This document shows, piece by piece, positions 28,671-38,667 of a DNA stretch of 64,000 nucleotides (the first letter of the stretch is position 1; each line of letters begins with the position of its first letter). Source of the stretch: Candidatus Rokuibacteriota bacterium (lineage in GTDB: Bacteria > Methylomirabilota > Methylomirabilia > Rokubacteriales > CSP1-6); NCBI GenBank assembly GCA_003220225.1, contig QHRU01000041.1:62001-126000 (forward strand), written 5' to 3'. A program made the translations under genes and the position numbers. The notes under the pieces were generated by a model. It did not search any database, was not told the DNA's origin, and saw only the letters and a list, made by a program, of their open reading frames with translations.

Positions 28671-28676
28671 ATTATA
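28671..28676 (-). promoter_or_regulatory. -10 element of the SsuABC-like operon
   Basis: A perfect TATAAT on the minus strand stands about 55 bases before the ATPase start. It overlaps the 3' end of the upstream hypothetical gene. No good -35 is visible at the usual distance. Confidence 0.45.
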
Positions 28677-29082
28677 GCGCGGGGGCTGGAGGGTCGCTGG
28701 CACTCCGGAGCACCCGACTGACGTCGGCGTGGGCCATCACGATGTCCGGAGAGTCCTGCAGCGCGGCGTGGTATCGATCCCGGAACTCGCCCGGCTCCCC
28801 GGACTTGAGCAATCGGTGCGCCTCTCGGAACGCGCTCCGCATGGTCTCCGGGGCGATGGCTTCGTCCGCATCCACGACTTCGTCGATCTGAGCGATCAGC
28901 ATCGAGAGCGATCGCAGCCAGGCGAACTGCTCGTCGTTGAGCACGAGACCGAACAGCTCGCGGGAGGGGATGGCGCCGTGGCGATCCTCGTACAGACCCC
29001 GCTCGCGATCGAGGAGAAGCCGGTGAAGCCGCACCAGGCGCGTGCTCAGGTCACGCAGTCGCTCGCGGTCGTGGCTCCCCAT
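28672..29082 (-). CDS. Hypothetical helical protein
   Basis: This 136-residue, mostly helical, probably cytoplasmic protein has charged stretches (DLSTRLVRLHRLLLDRERGLYEDRHG) and a core FAWLRSLSMLIAQIDEVVD. The ATG at 29082 is used; a GTG at 29094 is also possible. It follows the TctA gene by 17 bases and is the last gene of the eight-gene operon. No family is recognised with confidence. Confidence 0.6.
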   Translation of the reverse strand: MGSHDRERLRDLSTRLVRLHRLLLDRERGLYEDRHGAIPSRELFGLVLNDEQFAWLRSLSMLIAQIDEVVDADEAIAPETMRSAFREAHRLLKSGEPGEFRDRYHAALQDSPDIVMAHADVSRVLRSASDPPAPAL

Positions 29083-29099
29083 TCCGTGCGCCACGCCAC

Positions 29100-30611
29100 T
29101 CACGCGGTGTCGTCGGGCGGCACCGTGCGGAGCAGCCGCCGCACGGGCGACACGATCACCGGCAGCGCGACCACGATCAGGGCGGCGGCGATGAGCACGG
29201 TGGCGATGGGCCGCGTCATCAGAATCGAGAACCGGCCGTTCGACATGAGCAGCGACTGGCGGATCGATTCCTCCGCCATGCGCCCGAGCACGAAGGCCAG
29301 CACGAGCGGCGCGGCCTCGAACCCGAAGCGCTTCATGAGCAGACCGATCACGCCGAAGGCCAGCATCACCACGATGTCCCAGACGTTGGCCGACTCGCTG
29401 TAGACGCCGATCACGCAGAACAGCAAGATCAGCGGGAACAGGATCCCGTACGGCACCCGCAGCAGCTGCACCCAGAGCCCGATGAGCGGCAGGTTGAGCA
29501 CGAGCAGCATGAGGTTCCCGACGTACATGCTCGTGATGACGCCCCAGAAGATCTCGGGGTGCTCCTTGATGAGGAGCGGACCCGGCTGCACGCCGTGGAT
29601 CAGAAAGGCGCCGAGGAGCACGGCCATGACCACGTTCGGCGCGAAGCCGAGGGTGAGGAGCGGGATCATCGAGCCGCCCGTGGCGGCGTTGTTCGCGGCT
29701 TCGGGACCCGCGACGCCCTCGATGGCGCCCTTGCCGAAGCGCTCGGGCTGACGGGCGATGCGCTTCTCGAGCGCGTACGAGACGAACGTCGGGATGATGG
29801 CGCCGATGCCGGGCAGGATGCCGAGCAGGAAGCCGAGCACGCTGCCGCGGGCGATCGGCCCCGCCGAGCGCCTCCAGTCCTCGCGGCTCGGCATGAGCCC
29901 CTTGATCCGCGTATCGAAGACCTCCTGCTTCACGCCCTGGCCGATGTTGAGGAGCACCTCGCTGATCCCGAAGAGCCCCATGATGATCGGCACCAGCCCC
30001 AGCCCGTCGCCGAGGGTCACGCTGCCGTAGGTGAACCGCGGCGAGGCGGCGATCGGATCGAGCCCGACGGTGCCGAGGAGCATTCCCAGGAGCGCCATGG
30101 CGACCGCCTTCAGCTTGCTGCCCGCCGTGAGGTAGGTCACCATCGTGAACCCGAGGAGCAGCAGACCGAAGATCTCGGGCGGGCCGAACCGCAGCGCGAC
30201 CGAGGTGAGCGGCGGCGCCAGCAGCATGATGCCCAGCACGCTGAACGTCCCTGCGATGAACGAGCCCAGGGCCGAGATCCCCAGCGCCGGGCCGGCGCGG
30301 CCCTGCCGGGCCATCTGGTAGCCGTCGATGCACGTCACCACCGAGGCCGCCTCCCCGGGGATGTTCACGAGAATCGACGTGGTGGACCCGCCGTACATCG
30401 CGCCGTAGTAGATGCCCGCCATCATGATGATGGACGCGGTGGGCGACATCGCGAAGGTGATGGGCAGGAGCAGCGACATGGTCGCCACCGGACCGATGCC
30501 GGGCAGCACGCCGATGAGCGTGCCCACGAAGACGCCGACGAAGCACGCCGTCAGATTCGGAGGCTGCAGGCTGACCGAGAGCCCGTATGCGAGGCCGTGA
30601 AGCAGGTCCAC
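29100..30611 (-). CDS. tctA: Tripartite tricarboxylate transporter permease TctA
   Basis: This 503-residue large membrane subunit has about twelve predicted segments. The TctA signatures include GVLPGIGPVATMSLLLP, MMAGIYYGAMYGGSTTSILVNIPGE, GSVLGFLLGILPGIGAIIPTF and AANNAATGGSMIPLLTLG. Together with TctB and TctC it drives proton- or sodium-coupled uptake of carboxylates. The GTG at 30611 is used. A CTG nine bases upstream overlaps the tctB stop (CTGA) and is an alternative. Confidence 0.93.
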   Translation of the reverse strand: MDLLHGLAYGLSVSLQPPNLTACFVGVFVGTLIGVLPGIGPVATMSLLLPITFAMSPTASIIMMAGIYYGAMYGGSTTSILVNIPGEAASVVTCIDGYQMARQGRAGPALGISALGSFIAGTFSVLGIMLLAPPLTSVALRFGPPEIFGLLLLGFTMVTYLTAGSKLKAVAMALLGMLLGTVGLDPIAASPRFTYGSVTLGDGLGLVPIIMGLFGISEVLLNIGQGVKQEVFDTRIKGLMPSREDWRRSAGPIARGSVLGFLLGILPGIGAIIPTFVSYALEKRIARQPERFGKGAIEGVAGPEAANNAATGGSMIPLLTLGFAPNVVMAVLLGAFLIHGVQPGPLLIKEHPEIFWGVITSMYVGNLMLLVLNLPLIGLWVQLLRVPYGILFPLILLFCVIGVYSESANVWDIVVMLAFGVIGLLMKRFGFEAAPLVLAFVLGRMAEESIRQSLLMSNGRFSILMTRPIATVLIAAALIVVALPVIVSPVRRLLRTVPPDDTA

Positions 30612-30616
30612 GACCG

Positions 30617-31066
30617 TCAGCCGCCCCAGGGACCGGCGGGGAGCTGCACGTTGAGCCATACCTTGAACACGAGGTAGGTCACCAGCGCGGTGACGAGCGA
30701 GCTGGCGACGGCCACGAGCCACCGCTGCCGCTCCAGCGCCCTGAAGAAGAACACCAGCAAGGCGAAGGTCGCGGCCACGAACCCCGCCGACTCCAGCACG
30801 AGGGTATAGACGAACAGCGCCGCCATCGTGGCGCCGATCTTCGGCCATCCCAGACGCGCGGCGGACACCGCGTCCGCCCCACGCGCACGCGCGGCGATGA
30901 CGAGAAGACCCGTGCACACCAGCGAGAACCCGGCGGCGAGGACGACGGGAAAGAAGCCGGGGCCGGGCCGTGCGAGCGATCCGAAGCGGAGCCGGCCGGC
31001 TTCCTCGAGGGCGATGAGGCCGAACACGAGCAGGACGGCGGCCGCGCCGCGATCGCGTCCCGTCAC
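30617..31066 (-). CDS. tctB: Tripartite tricarboxylate transporter small subunit TctB
   Basis: This 149-residue protein has four predicted membrane segments in the typical TctB pattern: GAAAVLLVFGLIALEEA, LARPGPGFFPVVLAAG, ALFVYTLVLESAGFVAATFALL and LVTYLVFKVWLNVQLPAG. It associates with TctA in the membrane. The start is GTG at 31066, sharing one base with the tctC stop. Confidence 0.9.
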   Translation of the reverse strand: MTGRDRGAAAVLLVFGLIALEEAGRLRFGSLARPGPGFFPVVLAAGFSLVCTGLLVIAARARGADAVSAARLGWPKIGATMAALFVYTLVLESAGFVAATFALLVFFFRALERQRWLVAVASSLVTALVTYLVFKVWLNVQLPAGPWGG

Positions 31067-32043
31067 TAACGACCCAGATTCAGCTTCCTGGCCAGGCGCG
31101 TCACCACCGCGTTCTCGCGCTCGACGAGCGTCAGCGTCGCGGCGGGGTCGCGGTACTCGACGGTGAGCCCGGCCTTGTCGATGGCGGCGATCACGTCCGG
31201 GTCTCTCATCGTTTTCTCCAGAGCGGCGGAGAGACGATCGACGATCGGCTTCGGCGTCTTCGCGGGCGCGTACAGCTCCATCCACGTGCTCAGCGAGGCG
31301 TCGGGTTGGCCCTTCTCGGTCATCGTCGGCGCGCTGGCGATCACGGGCAGGCGCTTGCTCGCGCTGGTGGCGAGGACCACGAGGTCGCCCGAGCGCACCA
31401 CGGAGAGCACGGCGCTCAGGGCGGCGGCGCCGATGGGGACGTGGCCGCCGAGGAGCGCGTTCTTCACGGGGCCGGAGCCGCTGAACGGCACGTGGGACAG
31501 CGTGAGGCCGTAGGCCTGCTGCAACAGCTCCATGTTGAAGTAGCTGTTGGTCCCCAGGCCCGCCGACCCGTAGGTCACCGACCCCGGATTCTTCCTCGCG
31601 TGGTCGACGAACTCTTCCAGCGTCTTCCACGGCGCGCCCGCCTTGACGAGGATCACCCCCGAGTCGATTGCGTAGCTGCCGATGACGGCGAAGTCCGAGA
31701 TCTTGTACGTCACGTCCGGCTGCGTGGCCGGCAGGATGGTCAGCGTGGAGCGCACGGTGGCCGCGAGCGTGTAGCCGTCCGGCCTGGCCTTGGCCACGCC
31801 GTCCATGCCGACCGCGCCGCCGCCGCCCGGCTTGTTGACGAGCACGACGGGCACGCCGAGGCTCGCGGCGAGCTGCGGCTGGATGACGCGGATGGCCGTG
31901 TCGGTGGGGCCGCCCGTCGCGAACGGAACGATGAACTGGATCGGCCGCGCTGGATACGGCTGCGCCCACGCGCGCGGAACGACGGCGGGCGGGGCCACGG
32001 CCAGCGTGAGCAGCGCGGCGGCGACCAGGAGCGAGCGGCGCAT
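31066..32043 (-). CDS. tctC: Tripartite tricarboxylate transporter binding protein TctC
   Basis: This 325-residue protein has a Sec signal (LLVAAALLTLAVAPPAVVPRAWAQ). The Bug/TctC fold shows YPARPIQFIVPFATGGPTDTAIRV, VVLVNKPGGGGAVGMDGVAKARPDGYTL and YGSAGLGTNSYFNMELL. These receptors bind carboxylates or related small acids. The adjacent amidohydrolase gene, sharing one base with this one, may process the solute. Ligand unknown. Confidence 0.92.
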   Translation of the reverse strand: MRRSLLVAAALLTLAVAPPAVVPRAWAQPYPARPIQFIVPFATGGPTDTAIRVIQPQLAASLGVPVVLVNKPGGGGAVGMDGVAKARPDGYTLAATVRSTLTILPATQPDVTYKISDFAVIGSYAIDSGVILVKAGAPWKTLEEFVDHARKNPGSVTYGSAGLGTNSYFNMELLQQAYGLTLSHVPFSGSGPVKNALLGGHVPIGAAALSAVLSVVRSGDLVVLATSASKRLPVIASAPTMTEKGQPDASLSTWMELYAPAKTPKPIVDRLSAALEKTMRDPDVIAAIDKAGLTVEYRDPAATLTLVERENAVVTRLARKLNLGR

Positions 32044-33536
32044 CAGTCCTCCTTCGTGAGCGGAAACGACCACGGGTTGATCTGCTCCGCGGTGCGGCCG
32101 AGCGGATCCCACTCCTGCACGCGCCGCCACACCGTCTCGCCCGCCTCCTGCGCCTGGCGCCGCACGGCCGCGAGATCGACGCCGGGAATCACGCGATCCC
32201 GCATGCGGACGGCGCCATCCACGATCACGGTGACCACGTCGTCGCCGATGCCGCACTCCACCAGCGCCTTGATCGGATCGCGCACGGGCCCGAAGCGCAG
32301 CGTGTCGCGCGTCGCGAGGTCGATCACCACGAGGTCGGCCTTGGCCCCGGGCGCCAGCCGGCCGAGGTCGTCGCGGCCGAGGGCCCTGGCGCCGCCCAGC
32401 GTGGCCGCCTCGAACACCTCGGCCGCGGAGGCCGCGAAGAGGTTGTGGCTCACCACCTTGCCGAAGTAGGACGCGATGCGCATCTGCATGATGAGGTCGC
32501 GCGGATAGGTGTCGCTCCCGAGGGCGAGGTTGACGCCGGCCGCGCGATACTTCGGCCAGGAGTCGAGGTAGCGCGCGCGCCGCGCGATGTTCACCGGACA
32601 GTGCGAGACGGTCACGCGGTGGCGGCCCATCAGCTCCAGCTCGCGGCCGCCGGAGTAGTTCAGCAGCGCGTTGTCCGCGATGAGGTTGCCGTGCCCGATG
32701 GTGAGGTCGGGGCCGAGCAGCCCGACGCTCTCCAACAGCTCCACCGGGGTCATGCGGTGCTCGCGCAGGATCTCGTAGAACTCGAGGACGTTGTACGCGG
32801 CGTGGGTCACGATCGGCAGTCGCAGCTCGTCGGCCGCCTTGCGGGTCGCCTGCAGCAGGTCGAGCGTGCAGGTCTCGACCTCGCGGGGGGCGAGCAGGCC
32901 GCGCACCCGGCCGTGCACGGTGCCGTCGACGCGGCGGATGAACGCCATCGCGCGCTCGAACTCCTGGCGGCCCGCCGCCTCGTCGATCACGCGCTTGAGC
33001 CGGCCCTTCTCGTCGCCCACCCAGCGCCCGGAGTCGTAGCCCGCCCCGAGATAGGCGCGGAGCCCGAGCCGCTCGACCTCGCCCAGCAGCGCTTCCTGCA
33101 CGCCGAGCTGGCTGCCGAACTCCATGAATGTCGTGATGCCGTTGCGCAGCATCTCCGCGACGGTGAACGTCGCGAGCAGACGGTTGCCGGCCTCCGCGTC
33201 GGCATCCGTCGGGCGCGCGTAGCGCGGGTCGCCGCCCACGCGGGTGCCCTCGCGCGGCACGCTGATCTCCAGGAAGGGCTGGCCGTAGAACTCCGGCCGC
33301 CCGGTGTCGGTGATGAGTCGGTGCGAGGCGCGGTGGCCGGAGTGCACGTGGGTGTCGATGAACCCCGGGCAGACCAGCATGCCGCGCGCGTCGATCTCCG
33401 CGTCGGCGCGCCCGTCGAAGCGGCGGCCCACGTGCACGATGCGGTCGTCCTCGCACACCACCACGCCGTCGGGAACGAGGGTGTGGCCGCCTCTCGCGAA
33501 GCCGACCACCCAGCCGCCGCGCACGAGGGTCCGCAT
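32043..33536 (-). CDS. Amidohydrolase (cytosine deaminase/ATZ-TRZ-like)
   Basis: This 497-residue metal-dependent hydrolase has the composite fold. N-terminal strands lead into CPGFIDTHVHSGHRAS with the HxH pair. VTHAAYNVLEF, GHGNLIADNALL and ALGSDTYPRD supply the further His and the catalytic Asp. KADLVVIDLATRD marks the end of the barrel. The family removes amino or chloro groups from heterocycles or cleaves cyclic amides. Its place between tctC (one-base overlap) and a PhnD-like gene suggests it handles the imported compound. The ATG at 33536 begins homology. Confidence 0.87.
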   Translation of the reverse strand: MRTLVRGGWVVGFARGGHTLVPDGVVVCEDDRIVHVGRRFDGRADAEIDARGMLVCPGFIDTHVHSGHRASHRLITDTGRPEFYGQPFLEISVPREGTRVGGDPRYARPTDADAEAGNRLLATFTVAEMLRNGITTFMEFGSQLGVQEALLGEVERLGLRAYLGAGYDSGRWVGDEKGRLKRVIDEAAGRQEFERAMAFIRRVDGTVHGRVRGLLAPREVETCTLDLLQATRKAADELRLPIVTHAAYNVLEFYEILREHRMTPVELLESVGLLGPDLTIGHGNLIADNALLNYSGGRELELMGRHRVTVSHCPVNIARRARYLDSWPKYRAAGVNLALGSDTYPRDLIMQMRIASYFGKVVSHNLFAASAAEVFEAATLGGARALGRDDLGRLAPGAKADLVVIDLATRDTLRFGPVRDPIKALVECGIGDDVVTVIVDGAVRMRDRVIPGVDLAAVRRQAQEAGETVWRRVQEWDPLGRTAEQINPWSFPLTKED

Positions 33537-33538
33537 CA

Positions 33539-34345
33539 CTACGCGAGCTTCGGGTACCCGGCGTCCTTCGCCGCCTGCTCGCGCTGCAGGAACACCTCGA
33601 AGGCGGCGGGCGTCACGCGGTCGAAGCGCGTGAGGAGCACGTCGTCGAGGAGCGGACGCGCCTCGGCGGCGTGGTGCGCCGTGACCAGTGCCTGCGTGAG
33701 CCGCTCCCGCGTGCCCGCGTCGACGCCGCTGGAGGCGACGAGCGGCGGGCTCGGCGCCGGCACGGTCGTCTCCACCACCCGCACCCGCGCGGCGACGGTC
33801 GGGTCGTGGCGGCGGAGCAGGTCGAGCGCGTACCCGTCGACGGCCGCCACGTCGGCCTCGCCCTTGACGACCAGGTCGAACAGGGGCCGCTGGCGCACGT
33901 AGGGACCGAGCACGGCGCGATAGAGGGCAGGACGCGCGGGCGAGACGTGCTTCAGCAGATGGTGCCGGGGCGCGTTGTAGCCGGAGTGCGAGTGCTCGGT
34001 GGAATACGCGATGACGCCGCCGAAGGTGTCCTCGAGGGTCCGGTGCGGTCCGGCCGCGCTCACGATGAAGTCGGTCACGTACGCGGCCCGATCGCCGTAG
34101 CGAAGCGGTGACGGCACGGGCGCCGCGAGCAGCGCGGGTCGGTCGCGCCGCAGGGCCCAGGGATAGCCGCACATGAAGACGCAGCCCATGTCCTGCCGCG
34201 CCCAGAGCTCGTCGAGGTTCGTGGGCGTCGACTGGTCGATCACCGCGAGCTCGACCCCCGCCGCCCGCGCGATCCACTCCAGCAGGCGCTGCCAGGCGGC
34301 CGCCAGCGACGGCGACCACGCATACATCCGGGCCGACGCGATCAC
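33539..34345 (-). CDS. PhnD-like binding protein without signal peptide
   Basis: This 268-residue protein resembles phosphate/phosphonate (PhnD) binding proteins. A first lobe contains GVELAVIDQSTPTNLDELWARQDMGCVFMCGYP. A second has GGVIAYSTEHSHSGYNAPRHHLL and GEADVAAVDGYALDLL. It lacks any signal peptide, so it probably acts in the cytoplasm as a sensor or enzyme rather than in transport. The start is GTG at 34345, overlapping the TPR gene stop (GTGA). The downstream gap to the amidohydrolase is two bases. Confidence 0.75.
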   Translation of the reverse strand: MIASARMYAWSPSLAAAWQRLLEWIARAAGVELAVIDQSTPTNLDELWARQDMGCVFMCGYPWALRRDRPALLAAPVPSPLRYGDRAAYVTDFIVSAAGPHRTLEDTFGGVIAYSTEHSHSGYNAPRHHLLKHVSPARPALYRAVLGPYVRQRPLFDLVVKGEADVAAVDGYALDLLRRHDPTVAARVRVVETTVPAPSPPLVASSGVDAGTRERLTQALVTAHHAAEARPLLDDVLLTRFDRVTPAAFEVFLQREQAAKDAGYPKLA

Positions 34346-35922
34346 CGGAACGCTTTCGCTTCCACGAGCTCGGGGCGCTGGCTGTCGGCGGACGCGGCGG
34401 TGGCGAGCAGCCTGCCGTAGTACGTCCTGGCCTTTTCGCGATCGCCCGCGCGCTCCGCGGCCTTGGCCACGCCGTACAGCGCCTTGAATCGGTTGGGCGC
34501 CACGCGCAGCGACGCCTCGTAGGCCTGGCCGGCCGGGCCGGGCTGGCCCGCCTCCATCAGCATGTCGCCGAGCAGCTCGCGGGCGGTGACGATCGGTCCC
34601 GGCGTGATGTTGTGCTTCTCCGTCGACGCCTCGAGCTCGACGGCCGAGCCCATGAGGGCGGAGGCCTCGTCCCCCTTGCCCTCCGCGCGCGCCGTCCACG
34701 CCGCCGCCGCGCGCCGCTGGATCTCGATCTGCTCGGCCCAGTACGCATCCTTCATGAGGTCCTTCAACGCCGCCAGCCTGTCGACGTCGCCGCGGGCACG
34801 CGCGGCGTCGCCGCTCCGCGCGGCCCCGATGGCGCGCGCAAAGTAAATGATCGATTCCGTGTGCGGGAACCGATTGGGGCGCGGATCGATGGCCGCGGCC
34901 TCCGTCCACTTGCCACGCTCCATCGCCCAGCGCGCCTCGATCGCCGCCATGGCGAAGTGGGCGGTGGGACGCCCGGAGTCGTACGCGCGCGCCGCGAGAT
35001 CGGCCATGATGGCGCGCGCCTCGTCCACCACCTTCTTCGCCTGCGCGTCCTGGGCCTGCTGCAGGTAGCCGTACACGAGGTAGTCCAGCGCGTGCATGTG
35101 GTCGTCGGGGTTGCCGCGGCTCTTCTCGGCGGCGGCGGCCGCGATGTTGCTCTTGACGGTGTCGGGCCACATGCCGAGCAGCACGTAGATGTGCGAGGGC
35201 ATGTGCAGCGCGTGCGGCACCGAGGGCGCGAACTGCGCGTAGCGGCGCGCGGCCGGCAGCCCCTGTTGGGCGAGCGCCGGATAGTCGTAGCCGTGGATCA
35301 TGTAGTGCGCGGCGCCGGGATGGTCGGGCTCGGCCGCGAAGATCTTCTCGGCGATCTGCGCCGAGCGCTTCTGGTTCGCGTACGTCTTGTCCCTGGGATC
35401 CGCGGTGGCCTGCAGCGACAGCGCGTAGAAGGCCATCACCTCGCGATCATCCGGATAGCGCTGAGCCATCTGCTCCATCGCGCGGCCGTAGGCGAGGGCG
35501 CGCGTGCGGTGGTCGGCCTTGTCGGCGTCCTTGAAGAACGCCTCCGCGGCGGCGACGAAGTCGCCCTCGCGCGGCGGCAGCGTGCGGCGCACGCCCTTGG
35601 CCTTCTCGACGGCCTCCGCGCCGCGCTTGAGCGCCGCGGGCGGCGGGGGCGACCAGATCTGCGTCCAGCTGGTCATGGCCAGACCCCAGTACGCCATCGC
35701 GCAATCGGGATCGGCCTGGGCGATCTGCGTAAAGGCCTTCGCCGCCTCGAGGTACCAGAACGAGTGCAGCAGCGCCACCGCTCGCTCGAACGGCTGCTGC
35801 ACCGCCGGGCTGCAGGACACGGGGAAGCGCACCTGCCCGATCTTCTCCGCCTGGTCGGCGACCACGACCGTCGCGACGACGAGCGCCATCACGATGCTGA
35901 GCACCGACGCGTTCCGCTTCAT
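34342..35922 (-). CDS. Exported TPR-repeat protein
   Basis: This 526-residue protein has a signal peptide or anchor (LSIVMALVVATVVVA). Several tetratricopeptide-like helical pairs follow, for example LEAAKAFTQIAQADPDCAMAYWGLAM and the C-terminal AGQAYEASLRVAPNRFKALYGVAKAAERAGDREKARTYY. His-rich segments (AAHYMIHGYDYP, PHALHMPSHIYVLLGMW) recur in this family and could bind metal, but that is speculative. The ATG overlaps the end of the extended DedA-rhodanese frame by ATGA (35919-35922). Confidence 0.8.
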   Translation of the reverse strand: MKRNASVLSIVMALVVATVVVADQAEKIGQVRFPVSCSPAVQQPFERAVALLHSFWYLEAAKAFTQIAQADPDCAMAYWGLAMTSWTQIWSPPPPAALKRGAEAVEKAKGVRRTLPPREGDFVAAAEAFFKDADKADHRTRALAYGRAMEQMAQRYPDDREVMAFYALSLQATADPRDKTYANQKRSAQIAEKIFAAEPDHPGAAHYMIHGYDYPALAQQGLPAARRYAQFAPSVPHALHMPSHIYVLLGMWPDTVKSNIAAAAAEKSRGNPDDHMHALDYLVYGYLQQAQDAQAKKVVDEARAIMADLAARAYDSGRPTAHFAMAAIEARWAMERGKWTEAAAIDPRPNRFPHTESIIYFARAIGAARSGDAARARGDVDRLAALKDLMKDAYWAEQIEIQRRAAAAWTARAEGKGDEASALMGSAVELEASTEKHNITPGPIVTARELLGDMLMEAGQPGPAGQAYEASLRVAPNRFKALYGVAKAAERAGDREKARTYYGRLLATAASADSQRPELVEAKAFR

Positions 35923-36935
35923 GCTGGGCCTCCTCGATTCGGGGACCCCGAGTCTACCGTAATCGATGCGGACGCAGGCCCCGACGTCACGGTCGTCGCG
36001 CGCTCGAGGCTGCTCATCGCGTATCCACGCTCGCGCCAGGCGTGGAGGCCCCCTGCCAACGGACGCACGCGCTCGATACCGCGCCCTCTGAGCATGAGCG
36101 CCGCACGGGCGCTGGAGGCCTCGTTGGGTCACGTGCAATAGAGCACGATGTCGCGGTCGCGCGGAATCTCCTGATGACGGGCCTCCAGCTCCTCGGTCAT
36201 GAGGTGGAGCGCGCCGGGGATGATCGACGGCTCGGCGTCGAAATCGATCCGGGCGCGCAGGTCGACGATCATCACATCGTCGCCGGCGTCCAGCCGGGTC
36301 TTGAGCTCCTCGGGCGTGATCCGCGCGATCCTGATCGCCCTTAGAAATCGCTGGCGGGCGACGAATTTCCAGGCGATGTAGCCGCCGAGACCGGCCACCG
36401 CGAGGGCGACCGCCCCGCTGCCGAGGCGAGCGACGTAGGCGGCCGCCACCTCGAGTTGACGGCTGAACAGCCAGCCGACACCGGCGAATACGCCCGCCCA
36501 GATCAGGCCGCCGAGCCCGGTGAACACGACGAAGCGGAGCAGCGGCATTCGGATGATGCCGGCGAGCGGCGGCGCCGCGGTGCTGAAGCCCGGCACGAAC
36601 TTGGCGACCAGCAGCGAGCGCGCGCCGTGAACGCTGAAGACGCTTTGAGTGCGCCGCACGCACGAGTCGGGCTCGAGCGCGATGCGACACAGCCAGCCGA
36701 GGACGCGGCCGCCTCGGGTGCGGCCGATCCAGTACCAGATGGTGTCGCTGCCGAGCGACGCGAGCGCAGCCAGAACCAGGACGAACGCGAGGCTCAATCG
36801 ACCCGTGCCGGCGAGCGCTCCCGCGGCAAGAAGGACGGGCGCGGCGGGAATCGGCAACCCGATCTGCTCGGCGAAGACCCAGCCGAAGACGACCACGTAA
36901 CCGTACCGGACGAGAACGTCGATCGCCCCGTCCAT
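35919..36935 (-). CDS. DedA-rhodanese fusion, probable selenoprotein (UGA = Sec269)
   Basis: An N-terminal DedA membrane domain (about 1-205) carries EQIGLPIPAAPVLLAAGALAG and VAKFVPGFSTAAPPLAG. A cytoplasmic rhodanese domain follows (ITPEELKTRL to the end). After IVLYCT the frame meets TGA at 36131-36129, then continues PNEASSARAALMLRGRGIERVRPLAGGLHAWRERGY, exactly the expected rhodanese C-terminus. Relatives have Cys at the TGA, and it aligns with the catalytic persulfide Cys. A 6-bp stem hairpin lies 15 bases downstream, and the extended frame ends in an ATGA overlap with the TPR gene. Read as Sec the protein has 338 residues. If it is not recoded, the gene is truncated at 36129. Confidence 0.8.
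36097..36131 (-). promoter_or_regulatory. Candidate bacterial SECIS element
   Basis: Downstream of the in-frame UGA (36131-36129), after 15 bases, AGCGCC (36113-36108) and GGCGCT (36102-36097) form a perfect stem around the loop CGUGC. The second loop base is G. Position and loop fit the bacterial SECIS rule, a small hairpin roughly 15-40 bases after the UGA with an early G in the loop. Confidence 0.6.
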
Positions 36936-37014: not shown

Positions 37015-38667
37015 ATGTCGACGCTCGAGACCCGGCGCGAGCAGATGTTCCCGAAGCTCAGCCCGGAGGAGATCGAGCGGCTCCGCCGCTTCGGCACCGT
37101 GCGGCGCTACCGGGCCGGCGAAGCGCTGTACAGGACGGGCGAGATCAGTCCGGGGATGTTCGTCATCATCTCGGGGTCCGTCTCCGTCACGCGGCGCGAG
37201 GGCCTGGGACGCGTGCTCCCGATTCTCGAGGAAGGGCCGGGTGACTTCCTCGCCGAGGTGGGCCAGCTCTCCGGCCGTCCCTCCTTCGTCGACGCTCACG
37301 CGATCACGGACGTGGAGACGCTGCTCGTTCCCACCGATCGACTGCGGGCCCTGCTGATCGCCGAAGCCGAGCTCGGCGAGCGGATCATACGCGCGCTGAT
37401 CCTGCGCCGGGTCGCCCTGGTCGAAGCCGGCGCCGGCGGCCCCATCCTGATCGGTCCGCCCGGCAGCCTCGACGTCGTGCGCCTGCAAGGCTTTCTCGCC
37501 CGCAACGCCTGGCCCCATCAGGGGCTAGATCCCACCGAGGATCGCGATGCGGCGGCGCTCCTCGAGCGGTACGCGCCGCGCCCCTCGGACCTGCCGCTGG
37601 TCGTGTGCACCGACGGATCGGTCCTCAAGAACCCCCGCGAGGGCGAGCTGGCCGACTGCCTGGGCATGGTACGCATCGATCATCCCGACCGAACCTACGA
37701 CGTCGCCGTCGTGGGGGCAGGCCCTGCCGGTCTCGCCACGGCGGTGTATGCGGCCTCCGAGGGCCTGTCGGTGATCGTCTTCGACGCGGCGGCGTTCGGC
37801 GGCCAGGCGGCGGCGAGCGCGCGCATCGAGAACTATCTCGGATTCCCCGCGGGGATCTCCGGGCAGGACCTCATGGGCCGCGCGTACGTGCAGGCCCAGA
37901 AGTTCGGGGCCGAGATGGTGATCCCGAGCCAGGTCGTGCGTCTGGACTGCACCGGCACTCCCCTCGCTCTCGAGGTGGAGGACGGCCGCCGCGTGACGGC
38001 GCGCGCGGTCGTCCTGGCCAGCGGCGCGCGCTATCGGCGGCCCGCCATCCCGAAGCTCGAGGCGTTCGAGGGCCGGGGCGTCTGGTACTGGGTCTCACCC
38101 ATCGAAGCTCGCCTGTGCCGGCAGCAACACGTCGCGCTCGTCGGCGGCGGTAACTCGGCCGGCCAGGCCGCCGTGTTCCTCTCCCGCCACGCCGCGAAGG
38201 TGTCCATGCTCGTTCGCGGCGACGGTCTCGCCGCGACCATGTCGCGCTACCTCATCGACCGGATCGAGGCCACGCCGAACATCGAGGTGCTGACCCGGAC
38301 GGAAGTCGTGGCGCTGATCGGCGCGCCCGGCTCGCACCTGGAGCGCGTGCGCTGGCGGCGCACCACGACGGGCGAGGAGACCGAGCTGCCGATCCGCAAC
38401 CTCTTCCTGTTCGTGGGCGCCGATCCCGCGACGCAGTGGCTGCAGGGCTGCGGCGTCGCGCTGGACGCCAAAGGCTTCGTTCGCACGGGATCGGGCGATG
38501 GCCAGTCCCGGCCGTTGCCGCTGGAATCGAACGTCCGCGGCGTGTTCGCGGTGGGCGACGTCCGCTCGGAATCCGTCAAGCGGGTGGGCGCGGCGATCGG
38601 CGAGGGGGCGGCGGTGGTGGCGCAACTCCACACGGTGCTCGCGGAGACGGCGACGGCCGCGCGCTGA
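37015..38667 (+). CDS. Cyclic-nucleotide-binding domain fused to thioredoxin-reductase-like flavoprotein
   Basis: This 550-residue protein has three parts. A CRP/cNMP-like sensor (about 15-140) contains YRTGEISPGMFVIISGSVSV. A glutaredoxin-like linker (about 140-215) contains ILIGPPGSLDVVRLQGFLARNAWPH. A two-dinucleotide-fold reductase follows with FAD motif GAGPAGLATAVYAASEG, NAD motif GGGNSAGQAAVFLS and FAD-closing VFAVGDVRSESVKRV. The redox CxxC of true thioredoxin reductases is absent; the site reads YWVSPIEA. It is probably a ligand-controlled NAD(P)H oxidoreductase. It is divergent from the DedA-rhodanese operon. Confidence 0.85.
   Translation: MSTLETRREQMFPKLSPEEIERLRRFGTVRRYRAGEALYRTGEISPGMFVIISGSVSVTRREGLGRVLPILEEGPGDFLAEVGQLSGRPSFVDAHAITDVETLLVPTDRLRALLIAEAELGERIIRALILRRVALVEAGAGGPILIGPPGSLDVVRLQGFLARNAWPHQGLDPTEDRDAAALLERYAPRPSDLPLVVCTDGSVLKNPREGELADCLGMVRIDHPDRTYDVAVVGAGPAGLATAVYAASEGLSVIVFDAAAFGGQAAASARIENYLGFPAGISGQDLMGRAYVQAQKFGAEMVIPSQVVRLDCTGTPLALEVEDGRRVTARAVVLASGARYRRPAIPKLEAFEGRGVWYWVSPIEARLCRQQHVALVGGGNSAGQAAVFLSRHAAKVSMLVRGDGLAATMSRYLIDRIEATPNIEVLTRTEVVALIGAPGSHLERVRWRRTTTGEETELPIRNLFLFVGADPATQWLQGCGVALDAKGFVRTGSGDGQSRPLPLESNVRGVFAVGDVRSESVKRVGAAIGEGAAVVAQLHTVLAETATAAR

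Follow-up and report, generated by a model that had tools for sequence, protein, structure and literature searches.

A DedA-rhodanese gene in the genome of a soil bacterium, Candidatus Rokuibacteriota, raises two linked questions: does the in-frame UGA in its rhodanese active-site loop encode selenocysteine (Sec), and, if so, what might the resulting protein do? It is encoded on the minus strand of contig QHRU01000041.1, a detail absent from the original prediction, within a stretch of 64,000 nucleotides that was analyzed as a whole and is referred to here as the window. Comparative evidence indicates that the UGA almost certainly encodes Sec, and we consider it highly probable that the gene specifies a membrane DedA/CxU-rhodanese selenoprotein, with a thiol/selenol relay as the likeliest mechanism.

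Translation of the minus strand confirmed the frame on which the original prediction was based, in which IVLYCT is followed by TGA and then by PNEASSAR; read through the codon, it runs IVLYCT-U-PNEASSARAALMLRGRGIERVRPLAGGLHAWRERGY and stays open to the terminal stop. The codon falls within the active-site loop (LYC-T-TGA-PNEASSAR), and the sequence beyond it is indeed the remainder of the domain: the Pfam rhodanese match continues across it to residue 302, and the protein after the codon is strongly conserved in homologs. The gene's stop overlaps the ATG of the next gene as ATGA, which had been taken as a sign that the extended frame is functional. The overlap is present, but it carries little evidential weight because neither the last ca. 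20 residues nor the downstream gene is conserved among relatives. The features of the locus are collected in Table 1.

Table 1. Features of the DedA-rhodanese locus, in window coordinates.
Feature	Position	Strand	Remarks
DedA-rhodanese gene (predicted selenoprotein)	35919..36935	-	ATG at 36935, stop TGA at 35921-35919; 338 residues with UGA read as Sec
UGA codon for predicted Sec269	36129..36131	-	reads 36131-36129; TGA or TGC/TGT at this column in all homologs checked
Cys267 of CxU motif	36135..36137	-	invariant in 66 homologs
VTT/DedA membrane domain, residues 29-155	36471..36851	-	PF09335, 49.3 bits, cut-off 33.9
C83-RIALEPDS-C92 segment	36660..36689	-	both Cys invariant in rhodanese-fused DedAs
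Rhodanese domain, residues 207-302	36030..36317	-	PF00581, 50.9 bits, cut-off 22.2
SECIS-like hairpin AGCGCC-CGTGC-GGCGCT	36097..36113	-	reads 36113-36097; 6-bp stem, loop CGTGC, 15 nt after UGA
Next gene, 526 aa	34342..35922	-	no Pfam match; start at 35922 overlaps selenoprotein stop (ATGA)
Seven colinear genes: Pfam-less protein, substrate-binding-like, amidohydrolase-like, TctC/TctB/TctA-like, small protein	28672..35922	-	names from translations only
Divergent neighbor: cNMP-binding domain + thioredoxin-reductase-like FAD/NAD oxidoreductase	37015..38667	+	

The genome from which the window derives (6.03 Mb, 97% complete) contains all four components of the Sec machinery that had been named as a check on the prediction. 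The tRNA-Sec gene (C5:19682-19775, 69.7 bits) was also identified by ARAGORN as tRNA-Sec with anticodon tca, and it is adjoined by selA (C5:17007-18359) and selB (C5:15074-16951), all three being above their curated cut-offs. The fourth component, selD (C159:12780-13730), likewise scores above its curated cut-off; it has an in-frame TGA of its own in the motif CAGU, and SelD of this organism is thus probably a selenoprotein too.

The alignment of homologs proposed alongside the prediction gave Cys or in-frame UGA at a single column. When 95 genomes of the phylum were searched, 50 of 51 long DedA-rhodanese matches had an in-frame TGA, and a position check of 30 phylum homologs placed the TGA in the YC[TS]-U-P column in every case. 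The sole long match without an in-frame stop (G053:C534:3301-4203, 47% identity) probably has Cys; UGA forms occur in its genome as well. The window's own genome encodes a second DedA-rhodanese with a UGA (G000:C40:2730-3668, 51% identical), which sits downstream of a NodT-type efflux outer-membrane gene. In GTDB genomes, a scan recovered 80 loci, which belong to Methylomirabilota, Acidobacteriota, Nitrospirota, Myxococcota, and Pseudomonadota, with TGA at the Sec column in 46 and a Cys codon in 34; because the seeds included LCRI[SA]LEPD and YC[TS]CP, this ratio is not an estimate of frequency and the conservation of C83 in this set is partly selected. The tree of these loci requires at least six changes between Sec and Cys. 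The two forms also differ in their association with selA, which 22 of 24 genomes with the UGA form possess and 17 of 24 with the Cys form lack (Fisher 1.7e-5, a value that ignores shared ancestry). The two UGA-bearing metagenome-assembled genomes (MAGs) lacking a full selA, one with none (L073) and one with a fragment (L114), are probably incomplete. Because related genomes alternate between Cys and Sec at one position, they form a natural experiment on what leads bacteria to use selenium.

In bacteria, the SECIS element is a hairpin that directly follows the UGA and whose small apical loop includes a G (PMC1088965). The window has such a structure exactly where it was predicted, namely a perfect 6-bp stem with a 5-base loop beginning 15 nt past the UGA, and the loop consensus among relatives (CGKGY) is small and contains G. 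A perfect 6-bp stem occurs in 57 of 58 distinct UGA genes versus 10 of 34 Cys genes (Fisher 3.5e-13, again ignoring shared ancestry). Because the Fisher tests have this limit, we regard two other observations as stronger evidence. First, when codons were redrawn synonymously with the amino acids held constant, 3.2 perfect stems were expected among 46 genes and 45 were observed. Second, stem changes are compensated: one homolog (L105) has AGTGCC/GGCACT, two stand-alone rhodanese genes (L147 and L148) have AGTGCC/GGCAC, and a gene with two UGAs (L131) has a different stem, GCCGCC/GGCGGC, with the same placement after its second UGA. Codon choice follows the same pattern, with entropies of 0.25, 0.00, and 0.15 bits at codons 6, 7, and 10 after the UGA in UGA genes; other conserved codons have ca. 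1-2 bits, and codons 7 and 10 of Cys genes have 1.26-1.40 bits. The hairpin is supported by conservation of the stem across genes (45 of 46 versus 3.2 expected) but not by folding of the lone sequence: single-sequence folding gave a stability no better than chance in GC-rich DNA (z-score 0.27) and was dropped as evidence, and a search of Rfam found no matching model. During translation, SelB and Sec-tRNA would recognize the hairpin just past the UGA, leading to insertion of Sec.

The full machinery, the Sec/Cys alternation, the conserved hairpin, and the selA association thus all agree with the predicted reading of the codon as Sec. Standard gene callers would terminate the protein at the UGA, cutting the selenoprotein short at its active site, and it could be argued that the codon is a true stop, with the DedA part alone being made, or that UGA has been reassigned to another amino acid throughout the genome. 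Either is very improbable: the protein is strongly conserved beyond the codon, Cys is the sole alternative at this column, and the genome encodes a full Sec machinery; reassignment is further contradicted by the use of UGA as a normal stop elsewhere, including at the end of the DedA-rhodanese gene itself. Least credible of all is the idea that the TGA arose through faulty sequencing or assembly, or through a recent nonsense mutation in a gene that is being lost; although the window comes from a single MAG and TGA is one base away from TGC or TGT, the same codon recurs in dozens of independent assemblies from several phyla, with the downstream protein and hairpin conserved. Sequencing error, pseudogene, and genome-wide reassignment were rejected as explanations on the grounds of conservation. 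Scans beyond this gene family yielded little: viral-contig DNA contained no match to the UGA signature, and a GC3-based scan of the window for further in-frame UGAs returned only weak candidates and also missed the known gene, so that we draw no conclusion from it.

The original prediction placed the UGA at the catalytic cysteine. The protein has the fold of a rhodanese and, in its active-site loop, a nucleophilic Cys/Sec, as judged by Pfam and by an AlphaFold2 model (mean pLDDT 86) that superimposes on solved rhodaneses with an rmsd of 1.4-2.5 A for the top crystal structures, and Cys does occupy the column in 34 of 80 loci. The assignment of the nucleophile itself is divided. In a profile of 66 homologs, C267 fell in the column that holds the nucleophile of 3tp9, 6pfz, and 5ve3 (BpPRF), and the inactivating C314S mutant of BpPRF (5ve4) has its Ser at that column; in the same profile, residue 269 aligned with the nucleophile of 6mxv. 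Because the alignments split between C267 and residue 269, we prefer to describe the codon as a UGA in the CxU motif of the active-site loop. The loop that contains this motif, C267-T-Sec269-P, reads C-T-U-P-N-E-A-S-S-A-R and does not have the canonical CxxGxRS form; the selenium-dependent sulfur or selenium transferase activity of the original prediction is putative. In the model, a strand ends at residue 266 and a helix begins at residue 270, which makes for an unusual loop.

With Sec at position 269, the chalcogen residues of the protein number exactly four (C83, C92, C267, and Sec269), none of which varies. The set of 30 phylum homologs, which was searched without seeds, retains both C83 and C92 in every member (29 detected by pattern and one, with ICRISLEPDSC, by eye). 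The pair is shared with DedA-rhodaneses of Pseudomonas, Xanthomonas, and Comamonadaceae and is missing from E. coli YghB and from an unfused DedA encoded in the window's own genome. Lys and Arg are abundant in the C83/C92 segment and in the linker to the rhodanese domain, which suggests that both face the cytoplasm; by the positive-inside tendency, the rhodanese domain is probably cytoplasmic as well. We favor a model in which these residues form a relay: Sec269 and C267 would take up sulfane sulfur or an oxidizing equivalent as a persulfide or selenenyl-sulfide, and the C83/C92 pair at the membrane would receive the load. Judging from conservation, we give this mechanism roughly an even chance; the protein would then act in redox or reactive-sulfur defense and not in plain thiosulfate:cyanide transfer. 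The role of DedA-rhodanese (COG0586-PF00581) fusions has been called unclear (PMC10127716), and the invariant four-residue set offers a concrete, testable idea of what they do.

We favor the relay over two other accounts of a protein in which Sec is inserted. The first, which is unlikely but deserves serious consideration, is that the rhodanese is a conventional sulfurtransferase or selenotransferase that DedA merely tethers to the membrane, with Sec acting as a faster nucleophile. The Pfam match and the solved-rhodanese fold are consistent with this, as is the NCBI name of the Cys relatives, 'thiosulfate sulfurtransferase GlpE'; however, the loop departs from CxxGxRS, and a plain tether leaves the invariant C83 and C92 unexplained. 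The second, which we judge improbable, is a coupled uptake and assimilation device in which the DedA half acts as a carrier of selenium or sulfur oxyanions, or of thiols, across the membrane, and its rhodanese partner reduces or traps the cargo inside. Selenite entry and resistance in Ralstonia/Cupriavidus metallidurans have been tied to a DedA protein (Ledgham 2005, cited in PMC10127716; PMC11422209), and the re-entrant helices of the window protein still have their basic and acidic tips, in K112 and E23. Against this, Cys forms are common in organisms without selA, and selenium supply therefore cannot be the general role.

The gene was originally described as heading an eight-gene operon with a TTT transporter. 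The row of genes is real in the window, where seven further colinear genes follow in a compact arrangement, but relatives do not share it, and this includes the nearest one: no homolog of the immediately downstream gene was found near any of the 80 related loci or within 2.7 kb downstream of the DedA-rhodanese in the nearest relative. The operon and its transporter were accordingly set aside as a functional clue. The divergent oxidoreductase gene has a whole-protein homolog near 4 of the 80 loci, a fifth match being partial. Across lineages, the neighbors include genes for nitroreductase, YceI, MarR, SDR, pirin, cytochrome c peroxidase, and the cNMP-TrxR-like protein; they vary by lineage and lean towards redox and stress genes. 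PADLOC showed no defense link.

The prediction of a new selenoprotein seems to hold for the architecture but not for the CxU rhodanese module. Stand-alone CxU rhodanese selenoproteins are already curated (NF041203; PMC13188914), and the DedA-fused form appears to be a new architecture of this known type. We found no description of a DedA-rhodanese selenoprotein in the literature searched, of which most subscription journals were not part, and an earlier listing in a supplement is possible. PMC13188914 cites Deng et al. 2026, a study of groundwater MAGs, for a Methylomirabilota MAG with 63 selenoproteins. With the protein described here, the bacterial selenoproteins gain a DedA-fused membrane form that spans several phyla, including the common soil lineages Methylomirabilota and Acidobacteriota.

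Other arrangements of the module were also observed. An HtrA/DegP-like trypsin domain followed by a CxU rhodanese is encoded in the window's own genome (L141, G000:C121 near 15.4 kb, minus strand) and at four further loci (L143-L146); this form has the UGA and a near-identical hairpin, is ca. 490-530 aa long in L143, L145, and L146, and matched no named family that we could find. In another genome (L131, G037:C266), a single open frame with two UGAs joins DedA to two rhodaneses, the first CTU and the second CAU. We tentatively propose, as a possibility somewhat short of even, a new class of membrane selenoenzyme in which a DedA domain with its invariant Cys pair (C-x8-C) and a CxU rhodanese form an electron or sulfane-sulfur relay at the membrane, the CxU module and its SECIS having spread as a cassette onto DedA, an HtrA-like protease, and stand-alone forms.

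The protein was also compared with known systems. TsoB (NF045694), a rhodanese/DsbD fusion-like selenoprotein, also combines a rhodanese-type domain with Sec in the account given in PMC13188914; it differs in its UxxxxU motif and DsbD-like partner, and the window protein scores 12.8 bits against that model's cut-off of 805. The COG0586 undecaprenyl-phosphate flippases (YghB and UptA) share the VTT fold, and four residues, E39, D51, R130, and R136 in YghB, are reported to be essential in them (PMC10127716). The window protein has E23 for E39 and K112 at the place of R130, whereas D51 and R136 are replaced family-wide by A/V/I and S/N/G, respectively (A32 and S118 in the window protein). Because two of the four essential residues are replaced throughout, we do not assign the protein to the undecaprenyl-phosphate flippases; its NCBIfam UptA score is 47.5 bits against a cut-off of 250. 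The Cys DedA-rhodaneses, which are already known (COG0586-PF00581 in PMC10127716; PMC12893004) and annotated as 'DedA family protein/thiosulfate sulfurtransferase GlpE' (P. aeruginosa PA1209 type), have the same architecture and the same C83/C92 pair, but carry CxC in place of CxU and occur mostly in hosts without selA. On the selenium side stand the members of NF041203 (rhodanese_LYCAU, 'rhodanese-related (seleno)protein'), which corresponds to the rhodanese-like form 3, CxU, TKB26178.1 of PMC13188914. The window protein has the CxU motif (YC-T-U) and scores 80.5 bits against this model, below its cut-off of 115, which was exceeded in only 2 of 94 phylum genomes. Both have a rhodanese fold, C-x-U followed by P, a UGA codon, and a hairpin at the same position; the NF041203 proteins stand alone over ca. 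126 positions, whereas the window protein carries its rhodanese behind an N-terminal DedA domain.
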